Positions 56,887-60,265 of a stretch of 64,000 nt of DNA are shown here, in pieces (the stretch's first letter is position 1; every line of letters starts with the position of its first letter). The translations under genes were made by a program, and so were the position numbers. The notes under the pieces were generated by a model. The model saw only the letters and a list, made by a program, of their open reading frames with translations. It made no database searches and was not told where the DNA came from. This DNA comes from Ignavibacteriota bacterium (GTDB lineage Bacteria > Bacteroidota > Ignavibacteria > UBA10030 > SZUA-254), in the NCBI GenBank assembly GCA_016212665.1, contig JACREZ010000025.1:1-64000 (forward strand), written 5' to 3'.

Positions 56887-58383
56887 TTGAATCACTTACA
56901 AGAACAAGAAATAGAAACATACGTCCTTACTCCTGAGCAATTCTCTCAGGAAGTAACGAATTTATTTCAAGAACATTTGAACGATTGTGAACTCTGCTAC
57001 GAGCATGTGCAGAGATTGCGCGCTTTTTATACTGCCGTTGCCGAAGGAATGAAACAACCTGCAACGGAACGTGACAAAGCATTTGCCGAGCAACTGACAA
57101 CTCCCCTCAAACCACGGCTTGCTTTACCTTCTTCGACGTTTGCACAAAAGGAAGATGCAATTGATGCTTATGTTGAAATTATCGAACCGGAGAAACGAAA
57201 TCTCCCTTCACGGGTCTATCATTTTTTCCGGTTCCATCCAATTCAAGCCACAGTAAGAACATCCCTCGCCGCCGCGTTGGTGTTCTTCACCTATTACTTC
57301 TTCACACCGAAAAATGTAATGCCTCCTCCGCTCGATACCAATCCGAACTACGCCCGTGCAGAGAAAGAATTTCTTGTTACCTATAATAAAGATGGGAGAG
57401 AATTATGGAGAAAGCATATTGGGATTGGGTATGATATTGAAAGCCGGCTCCGAGGTTCACAAAACAAATATGAGAATTATCTTGCAACTCTTGATGTTGA
57501 TAACGATGGAAAAAAAGAGGTAATCGCGAATATTGGTTTTGTTTCAAGTTATCCTCGAAAAAAAGAAATTATATGTTTTAACACCGATGGAACTGAACGT
57601 TGGTCGTATGCTATGACACAGGAAATGACCTTTGGGACGGAACACATGACAGGAAATTATCTTCCATCACTTTTCATGGCAGGAGATTTTGACCACAACG
57701 GAACAGGTGAAGTGACGGTCTTTTTCAATCACGATACATACTATCCATCTCCCATCGTTCATCTTCAGGGTTCATCCGGTGAAGTACTTGGGATATTCTG
57801 GCATATTGGAAACATTTCAAATATTGCCCATAGGGATGTTGATAAAGATGGAGTTGATGAATTGCTCTTTGCGGCTCAGAACAACGCGTTTGATAATGCT
57901 TCTCTTACCGTACTGGACCCTCGTGTAATTGCCGGCTACTCTCCTGCCGATTCAACAAGAACTCCGATGAATACTCCGGAAGGAACAGAAAAATATTATC
58001 TCCTTTTCCCGAGATGCGACATTAAACTTTTTGCAACAGCCAAACGAAATAATGCCGACGCAATCATGTTCGCGAGCGAAAGCGTTACGCGTATCAACGT
58101 TGCTGAATATGTTGGTAACGATTCCTATTATCAATTTTATTTTCTTGATTCCTTATATCGTTGTTACCGTGTTGATGGAGAGGATTGGTTCCTTACTTTC
58201 CATCGCAAAATGGTAAAAGAAGGAAAACTCAGTACACCGGTTGATTCTGTTTATTACCAAAACCTCCGCAAAGGCGTGCAATACTGGGATGGAGAAAAAT
58301 TTGTCAACGAGCCGACGATGAATAAACGGTACATTGAAACGATACGTAGTAGCGAGTCATCAGACTCGCAAACCGTTCGGTAA
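56887..58383 (+). CDS. Zinc-finger anti-sigma-like membrane protein with FG-GAP/VCBS-like repeats
   Basis: 498 residues from TTG 56887, the only near start. Cytoplasmic N-terminus with 'HLNDCELCYEHV', a HxxxCxxC zinc motif as in anti-sigma factors; membrane helix at about 124-141; then an extracytoplasmic part with calcium-type loops 'DVDNDGKKEV', 'DFDHNGTGEV' and 'DVDKDGVDE', i.e. a beta-propeller of the FG-GAP/VCBS type. No strong ribosome site is seen. The last about 12 codons and the stop lie inside a REP element, so the natural C-terminus was probably different. Confidence 0.7.
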   Translation: MNHLQEQEIETYVLTPEQFSQEVTNLFQEHLNDCELCYEHVQRLRAFYTAVAEGMKQPATERDKAFAEQLTTPLKPRLALPSSTFAQKEDAIDAYVEIIEPEKRNLPSRVYHFFRFHPIQATVRTSLAAALVFFTYYFFTPKNVMPPPLDTNPNYARAEKEFLVTYNKDGRELWRKHIGIGYDIESRLRGSQNKYENYLATLDVDNDGKKEVIANIGFVSSYPRKKEIICFNTDGTERWSYAMTQEMTFGTEHMTGNYLPSLFMAGDFDHNGTGEVTVFFNHDTYYPSPIVHLQGSSGEVLGIFWHIGNISNIAHRDVDKDGVDELLFAAQNNAFDNASLTVLDPRVIAGYSPADSTRTPMNTPEGTEKYYLLFPRCDIKLFATAKRNNADAIMFASESVTRINVAEYVGNDSYYQFYFLDSLYRCYRVDGEDWFLTFHRKMVKEGKLSTPVDSVYYQNLRKGVQYWDGEKFVNEPTMNKRYIETIRSSESSDSQTVR

Positions 58384-58437
58384 CTACAGTTCATTGAATG
58401 CTGTTCATTGAATGCCGTTCGGTGAACGGCTACTGCG
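58346..58437. repeat. REP element A (paired palindromes)
   Basis: Starts GTAGTAGCGAGTC-ATCA-GACTCGC and ends GCCGTTC-GGT-GAACGGCTACTGC; the outer GTAGTAGC / GCTACT pair. In between is a doubled TTCATTGAATG. It covers the 3' end of the FG-GAP gene. Confidence 0.88.
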
Positions 58438-58460
58438 CTTAATCAATTTGGTATTATTGT

Positions 58461-59078
58461 ATGAAACAATATCGGAAAAAACCTCCTCGTTACTCTCAAG
58501 ACAATTCGTATTACTTCCTTACCTTCTGTACGTTCAAACGAAAACCGTTTCTTCATTTACCCGGAATCCCGGAATTCCTTATCGAAGAATTATACTTTTA
58601 TGAAAGCAAGATACAACAACTTGTCGCATACACCATCATGCCAGACCACATCCATCTTCTTGTAGAAGTTGAACAAGCCACCGACCTTTCAATCTTCCTC
58701 CGTGATTTCAAAAAGTTCACCTCCCGCGAAATAAAAACCCGCCTCTGTAGTAGCGGGTCACCAGACCCGCACCCGACCCGCACGAATAATGCAGTCATGT
58801 CAAATGCCGTTCTGGTGAACGGCTACTACTATGAACGTAACGATGAACCCATCTGGCAACCCGGAACAATGGACCACTGCATTCGAATGGGTTGGACAAA
58901 CAACGACCTGCACAATCATCTTGCATACCTGTTTTATAATTCATACAAGCATCTGAGAATAGCCCCAAAAGATTTTCCTTACCATAATTTCAAAGCATTG
59001 GTTGACAAAGGATATTTCGACAACGATTATTATTCCTTCGATGAGAAATCGTTTCCTGCATCCTCAACATACGAATAA
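58461..59078 (+). mobile_element. REP-associated tyrosine transposase (RAYT, Y1_Tnp family)
   Basis: 205 residues. HUH motif in 'MPDHIHLLVE', start 'YRKKPPRYSQDNSYYFLTF', and C-terminal 'IWQPGTMDHCIRMGW' with a helix containing 'YLFYNSYKHL', which should carry the catalytic Tyr. RAYTs nick at REP palindromes, and REP elements lie on both sides of this gene (58346, 59091) and inside it (58746-58831). The internal copy adds about 29 residues without breaking the frame. Whether it remains active is uncertain. Confidence 0.92.
58746..58831. repeat. REP element B, inserted in frame in the RAYT gene
   Basis: GTAGTAGCGGGTCACCAGACCC... left palindrome and GCCGTTCTGGTGAACGGC right palindrome, with GTAGTAG/CTACTAC outer ends. 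Encodes 'SSGSPDPHPTR' and 'VLVNGYYYE'-like sequence inside the transposase. Confidence 0.88.
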
Positions 59079-59090
59079 TCTTCCCCACCC

Positions 59091-59216
59091 GTAGTAGCGG
59101 GTCACCGACCCGCACCCACATTCATATTTGTGGTGCTGGTGACGATACATGCCACTTTGGTGACGACATCTGCCGCTCTGGTGACGATATATGCCGCTCT
59201 GGTGAGCGGCTACTAC
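59091..59216. repeat. REP element C with three 21-bp tandem units
   Basis: GTAGTAGCGGGTC-ACC-GACCCGC on the left, GCTCTGGTGAGCGGCTACTAC on the right. Between them three 21-bp units starting GGTGACGA (59138, 59159, 59180). A 207-bp gap 59079-59285 holds this and nothing else seen. Confidence 0.88.
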
Positions 59217-59301
59217 GAATAAAAAATATTTTTAAAAACTTTTCCGCGAACGGATAACTCCGTTGCAATAGTATGTATAGAAACTATGCTCAATACATAC
59301 A

Positions 59302-59511
59302 ATTTTCAGCACTCACCATCTGACATTTCTATAAAAACACCTGTTTTTATGTCAGAAACAGGTGTTTCTTTGATAAAATCAACAGACATCACAATAATGT
59401 TTGATGATGTTGCCTTGAAAACACCTGACATTGCGGCAATGTCTGATGATTCTGTGACAAGATCACATGAAATCGAGACAATGTTAGTTGATTTTACAAC
59501 AATTTCAGGTA
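59302..59511 (+). repeat. 21-bp degenerate minisatellite (open heptad-coding frame 59286-59651)
   Basis: At least eight 21-nt units (e.g. ending ...ACACCTG, ...TTTGATG, ...CACATG). The frame from ATG 59286 stays open for 121 codons, reading heptads 'DITIMFD', 'DVALKTP', 'DIAAMSD', and ends in heptanucleotide repeats (59556-59633) that overlap the Fn3 gene start. Whether it is translated is unknown; the repeat looks like the locus at 25382. Confidence 0.7.
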
Positions 59512-59555
59512 ACAGCGAAAGCCATTTTCATCTTCAAATCAACAAGTTGGATTCA

Positions 59556-59632
59556 AGAATCACAAATTCACGAATCACGAATCCACTATTCACCAATTCA
59601 CCACTCACCAATAGCCAATCACGAACACAACT
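59556..59632. repeat. Heptanucleotide repeat before the Fn3 gene
   Basis: ATTCACG, AATCACG, AATCCAC, TATTCAC, CAATTCA, CCACTCA, CCAATAG units, degenerate. They fill the leader of the gene at 59633. Confidence 0.6.
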
Positions 59633-60265
59633 ATGGCAAACTCAAAAGTAAAACTCGGACTGCACCGTTTATCGGTTCCTGAAAAACTTACCTTCACAGA
59701 AACAATTATCAAAGCGATGTCGGGAAATGCGAACTTTCCCGAACCGCAACCACCATTGAACGAAGTCGAAGATGCCGCGAAATTCCTCAGGGAAGCGCAG
59801 GCAGATCAGGAAGCGGCGTACCAAATCGCTCAATCTAAAACGAGCACTCGGGATGACAAGGAAAAAATATTAAACGATAAACTCACCTCGCTTGCAGGGT
59901 ATGTCGAGCGGACAAGCGCAGGGGACGACGCAATCATCCTCAGCGCGGGGATGGAAGTGAAAGCGGCTCCTTCACGGCTCTCCGCCCTTACCATTGCTAC
60001 AAACCTGAGCGCAACCATGGGAGATGGCGAAGGTGAAATTGACCTGAGTTGGGACCCCGTTACTGGTGCGAAGAGCTACGTCATTGAAATGAGTCTCGAC
60101 CCGCCCACTGCTACAAGTTGGAGTCAGGTTGCAGTCAGCACCAATTCGAGTAAGACTGTTGCCAATTTAACGAGCGGAACAAAATACTGGTTTCGCGTTG
60201 CCGCAATTGGTGGAAACAATGTTCAGGGCTCGGCAAGCGATCCGGCAACGAAGGTAGCGCCGTAG
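59633..60265 (+). CDS. Small protein with helical N-terminus and fibronectin type III domain
   Basis: 210 residues without a signal peptide. Residues 1-110 are helical ('MANSKVKLGLHRLSVPEKL', 'ADQEAAYQIAQSKTS'); residues about 112-208 form an Fn3 domain ('GEIDLSWDPVTGAKSYVIEM', 'ANLTSGTKYWFRVAAIG'). Fn3-tailed proteins of this kind are numerous in Ignavibacteria-like genomes; role unknown, perhaps surface or structural. No clear ribosome site; it lies in repeats. Its Ala/Thr/Leu-rich style resembles the orphan protein at 21244. Confidence 0.65.
   Translation: MANSKVKLGLHRLSVPEKLTFTETIIKAMSGNANFPEPQPPLNEVEDAAKFLREAQADQEAAYQIAQSKTSTRDDKEKILNDKLTSLAGYVERTSAGDDAIILSAGMEVKAAPSRLSALTIATNLSATMGDGEGEIDLSWDPVTGAKSYVIEMSLDPPTATSWSQVAVSTNSSKTVANLTSGTKYWFRVAAIGGNNVQGSASDPATKVAP

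Follow-up and report, generated by a model that had tools for sequence, protein, structure and literature searches.

REPs are usually called extragenic, and the locus described here raises the question of what it means when a complete pair of them lies in frame inside the gene of a RAYT. The window, the whole stretch of 64,000 nt that was analysed, contains a RAYT gene for which the initial annotation had proposed self-targeting by a paired REP, an event that had either inactivated the enzyme or turned the inserted hairpin into a feedback site on the mRNA. The relevant features are:

58461..59078, + strand: RAYT / TnpA_REP gene, ORF of 205 aa with the REP insert in frame
58641..58655, + strand: HUH motif PDHIH (residues 61-65), columns invariant or nearly invariant in a 49-sequence alignment
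58747..58829, + strand: whole in-gene REPIN, 83 nt, which together with one flanking base accounts for 28 extra codons and makes the loop about 29 residues longer than the insert-free one
58747..58770, + strand: in-gene left REP, GTAGTAG foot plus CGGGTC/ACCA/GACCCG hairpin, 24/24 identical in G002
58806..58829, - strand: in-gene right (inverted) REP, stem CCGTTC; the G002 stem CCGCTC is a compensatory pair change
58926..58940, + strand: catalytic Tyr156 and Asn160 in YLFYN, invariant columns (49 sequences), aligned to the Y motif of 4er8
58346..58369, + strand: upstream flanking left REP, stem CGAGTC, overlapping the end of the upstream gene, 24/24 identical in G002
58414..58436, - strand: upstream flanking right REP, stem CCGTTC, foot slightly degenerate
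59091..59113, + strand: downstream flanking left REP
59193..59216, - strand: downstream flanking right REP, stem CCGCTC
REP in single-stranded form: GTAGTAGCGGGTCACCAGACCCGC, with CT/CC sites

The product of 58461-59078 matches Pfam Y1_Tnp (E 5.8e-9) and NF047646, REP_Tyr_transpos (E 2.5e-22, 79.3 bits at a curated cut-off of 80), the insert lying within the stretch matched by the latter, and the fold of its AlphaFold model (pTM 0.80) matches that of the E. coli TnpA_REP 4er8 (Z 16.5, 157 residues). An HUH motif, a catalytic Tyr with Asn, a Y1 nuclease fold and GTAG-foot REPs flanking the gene are all present, as in known RAYTs, and the locus is probably a REPtron, in which a single-copy RAYT (an HUH/Y1 single-strand nuclease) is accompanied by its own flanking REP pairs. 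Other RAYT-like genes of the window genome (C27, C23, C21, C17) contain no internal GTAGTAGC REP, and no relative of the window RAYT was found in the viral contigs searched.

Positions 58747-58829 read GTAGTAGC-GGGTC-ACCA-GACCC-GC ... GCCGTTC-TGGT-GAACGGC-TACTAC, and it can be read directly from the ORF that a complete REP pair is carried in frame and without a stop, as had been annotated. Two inverted REPs with a spacer form one folded structure, as in a REPIN or BIME. Folded as single-stranded DNA, the insert forms two hairpins closed by the GTAGTAG/CTACTAC feet (-20.0 kcal/mol, z -4.6, with equally stable folds in 0/200 shuffles), whereas the gain over shuffles of the mRNA fold is modest (z -2.2). 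In the protein, helix 73-97 (alphaC) comes before the insert and the W-motif strand (beta4) after it. In the window RAYT this alphaC-beta4 loop has 37 residues versus 6-8 in insert-free orthologues, and the annotated figure of about 29 added residues is therefore correct. The beta3-alphaC loop has the usual 8 residues. In the AlphaFold model the insert loop is of low confidence (pLDDT about 52-74), while the core exceeds 90.

The in-gene REP is of the same design as the flanking copies, which form REP pairs at 58346-58436 and 59091-59216, as the initial annotation had noticed. At a tolerance of 2 mismatches, the motif GTAGTAGCGGGTC has 5 matches in the window versus 0.29 expected, all 5 at the RAYT locus, and 0/100 shuffles reach this count. 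The genome-wide count that had been proposed gave, by pattern searches of a 3.9-Mb genome in 45 contigs, 6 strict-form REPs, 5 of them at the RAYT locus and 3 of those 5 outside the gene, so the high dispersed copy number of REPINs and BIMEs is not seen here. The sole strict REP of the window genome found off the locus, L007 (552-575), is a single left REP close to the end of contig C38. That intragenic REPs are generally tolerated was considered and rejected, as the remaining strict copies examined fall outside ORFs or within short ones; Pfam scans of three of them gave no match, and none of the strict REPs examined outside RAYT genes is contained in an ORF with such a match. The last residues of the upstream gene (56887-58383, with weak FG-GAP repeats), RSSESSDSQTVR, are encoded by the upstream REP, within which this gene terminates; this ending within 58346-58383 is also found in G002 and not in G001. 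Downstream, an A-T rich near-repeat tract (AATTCACGAATCACGAATCCACTATTCACCAATTCACC) occupies 59540-59630 at the end of ORF 59286-59651.

The window genome has MAGs of Ignavibacteriota/Bacteroidota type as its nearest named relatives. About 12 genomes of the order yielded RAYTs of the same subgroup as that of the window (DHIH, WQ and a YLFYNS-type Y motif), the genomes compared being fragmented MAGs. Seven of them (G005, G006, G046, G024, G073, G058 and G082) are insert-free, with a loop constant at 6-8 residues, and in-frame REP-derived DNA occupies the same loop in two genomes of the same genus as the window genome (G000), G002 (L037) and G001 (L038), and in one of another genus of the same family, G012 (L039). 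It is evident from this comparison that the orthologues do not all carry the same residues free of REP-like DNA. The insert of G002 is a REP pair of 137 nt whose 5' junction coincides to the base with that in the window, that of G001 consists of the left REP alone with a different yet perfectly paired stem, and in G012 only a decayed right half remains; the whole pair is therefore not required. Across the four insert-bearing RAYTs the inserts differ in length (28-56 residues) and stem and are REP-derived or partly decayed. These four RAYTs group in a single clade (support 100/97). G000, G002 and G001 have the upstream neighbour gene in common, from which it follows that the locus was vertically inherited, and the G012 RAYT is found at a different locus. 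With a single clade and a neighbour common within the genus, one insertion in the common ancestor of the four family RAYTs is the simplest and most likely history, although repeated landing in one loop is also possible, and low divergence would also result if each species had recently and independently acquired an insertion at one hot spot, against which stands the coincidence of the 5' junctions of G000 and G002. Divergence between G000 and G002 along 56887-60262 is very uneven, with amino acid identities of 43% for the upstream gene, 71% for the RAYT and 94% for the downstream fibronectin-type gene.

Between G000 and G002, synonymous differences are much rarer in the insert (pS 0.09) than in the rest of the gene (pS 0.57; Fisher p 3e-5), whereas non-synonymous differences are similar (pN 0.15 versus 0.13). 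Identity of the left REP at 24/24 positions would be expected with a probability of about 1e-5, given an identity of 30/48 at 4-fold sites. In the right REP, CCGTTC changed to CCGCTC through paired V-to-A and N-to-S changes that kept the stem. Similarly, the unrelated verrucomicrobial pair L116/L057 displays a pS of 0.22 in the insert and 0.83 in the rest (p 5e-8), and across 35 REPs 102/105 unconstrained stem positions pair, with a shuffled mean of 53. At the codon level the insert thus behaves as a REP and not as ordinary coding sequence: the DNA hairpin persists while the peptide drifts. This conservation would fit selection acting on the REP as well as its renewal by neighbouring copies. 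The left REP of the upstream pair has a stem type, GAGTC, that no other strict copy of G000 or G002 shares, and is nevertheless identical at 24/24 positions, which argues against homogenisation alone as the explanation of REP conservation.

Taken together, these sequence comparisons favor, with a probability of roughly 0.72, a tolerated and still REP-like self-insertion of a REP pair into an apparently working RAYT. RAYTs would nick and rejoin single-stranded REPs, and as the REPs lie mostly no farther than about 1 kb from the gene, local REP moves might strike the gene itself; we infer that one such RAYT-driven event placed a REP pair in the alphaC-beta4 loop. Only in-frame landings in loops would be retained, and this insert may owe its survival to a loop that tolerates insertions and to an in-frame landing. 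It would have stayed a REP either because REPs recognised by the RAYT are constrained or because it was renewed from neighbouring copies. Of the self-targeting that had been annotated, the self-insertion gains support from the contrast between insert-free relatives and one insert-bearing clade. The suggested inactivation is contradicted by the data: dN/dS between G000 and G002 is about 0.10 upstream of the insert (0.093/0.98) and about 0.15 downstream (0.181/1.19), the reading frame is open in four species despite different insert lengths, and the HUH motif and the Tyr/Asn pair are intact. Both coding halves are under strong purifying selection, and there is no sign of inactivation; the RAYT appears still to work. 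That a decaying pseudogene resulted might have been expected from 29 residues placed within a compact catalytic domain, but this reading was rejected on the dN/dS ratios, is contradicted by the open frames and intact catalytic residues as well, and is very improbable. Even less credence can be given to an assembly artefact or a chance palindrome. A single assembly of the window species was examined, but in-frame REP DNA is present at the same point in separately assembled genomes of two congeneric species, and the shuffled motif counts speak against chance.

A regulatory role of the in-gene REP is possible. The RAYT might bind the hairpin in its own gene or mRNA and so limit its own expression, or the site might tie REP and RAYT genetically, with selection keeping the hairpin; binding to the gene could occur while it is single-stranded during replication or transcription. 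Such a functional cis site would account for the conservation of synonymous sites in the in-gene REP DNA of two unrelated lineages, for the pairing kept despite amino acid changes, for the identity of the upstream left REP with its unique stem, beyond what homogenisation alone would give, and for the repeated origin of in-gene REPs, at least 4 times in the alphaC-beta4 loop and at least once in another. However, the hairpin lies mid-gene, distant from the ribosome site, G012 retains it in decayed form and G001 by half, most relatives lack it, the mRNA fold stands out modestly from its shuffles, and retention of a hairpin at the DNA level, which might be taken for mRNA feedback, is also expected from ordinary REP maintenance or renewal. 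For the window this reading is rather unlikely, and only slightly better odds attach to its broader form, in which REPs in RAYT genes would be selected cis sites that arose repeatedly, the enzyme acting on its own gene or transcript and thereby linking or limiting RAYT and REP. It is considerably less plausible that the REP-encoded peptide was co-opted into the enzyme. The peptide could alter REP recognition because the loop follows the DNA-binding helix, and the literature places the alphaC-beta4 region near REP recognition (PMC6006769, PMC8266576), but its sequence and length (28 to 56 residues) are not conserved, pN is at least as high in the insert as in the rest of the gene, and its modelled stretch is low in confidence and largely unstructured.

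The tolerated self-insertion has precedents. In subclass 2.4, REPs lie within tnpA_REP genes and leave the frame intact, as a rule between the HUH and Y motifs and at the periphery of a model (Quentin et al. 2018, PMC6006769), and a 2013 survey of GTAG and CGTC repeats found REPs in many genes (PMC3733652); the phenomenon is therefore not new. The window RAYT resembles subclass 2.4 in its in-frame REP between the HUH and Y motifs, its flanking REPs, the kept frame and a peripheral variable region. Assignment to that subclass was rejected on motifs and loop position, as subclass 2.4 has NH[IFV]H, YIxNNP and an insertion domain between beta3 and alphaC, whereas the window RAYT has PDHIH, YLFYNS and an alphaC-beta4 insertion. 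The HUH/Y1 fold (Z 16.5) and the GTAG-foot hairpins flanking a single gene are shared with the REPtrons of E. coli and S. maltophilia (PMC8266576, PDB 4er8), for which the part of that account considered here reports no in-gene REP, and in comparison with which the window genome has very few dispersed copies. Like the REPINs of Pseudomonas fluorescens (Bertels and Rainey 2011, PMC3116915), the insert joins two inverted REPs and a spacer in one hairpin unit; there, however, more than 1000 REPs occur, mostly extragenic, compared with 6 strict REPs here. In-frame palindromes coding for 20-30 residues are also known from intragenic GTAG/CGTC REPs and Rickettsia palindromic elements (PMC3733652), but their host genes are unrelated to REP movement, whereas the target here is the cognate RAYT. 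As far as the papers cited here show, the loop, the RAYT group, several alphaC-beta4 origins in the sample and the codon-level evidence for DNA retention are new. The window case is ordinary in kind and informative in detail: a REP that persists in the gene of its own processing enzyme, with DNA kept and peptide drifting, suggests that hairpins are retained for their nucleic-acid form even in coding sequence, and it offers a natural test of whether a RAYT acts in cis on its own gene.

Among 95 aligned RAYTs, in-frame REP-derived inserts in the alphaC-beta4 loop were found in the window clade, in the two verrucomicrobial clades L116/L057 and L070/L074 and in the Gastranaerophilales L059/L097. 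On the tree (147 columns, insert labels set by hand from DNA common to the flanks), this version requires at least 4 changes even when starred branches alone are counted as trusted. A fifth group, from Clostridia, has REP-like inserts in the beta3-alphaC loop; its count is less firm because L105, L106, L111 and L114 were placed there by loop length and similarity and not by a clear shared REP. That such inserts originated independently in several phyla suggests that local self-targeting may be a general property of REPtrons. In the clostridial L082, L075, L113, L076, L067, L092, L062 and L100, REP-like hairpins of the GGACACCCCGGGAGGGGTGTCCCTAC type lie in frame in the beta3-alphaC loop, and in L116, L057, L070, L074, L059 and L097 the in-gene REP-like palindromes match palindromes flanking the genes.
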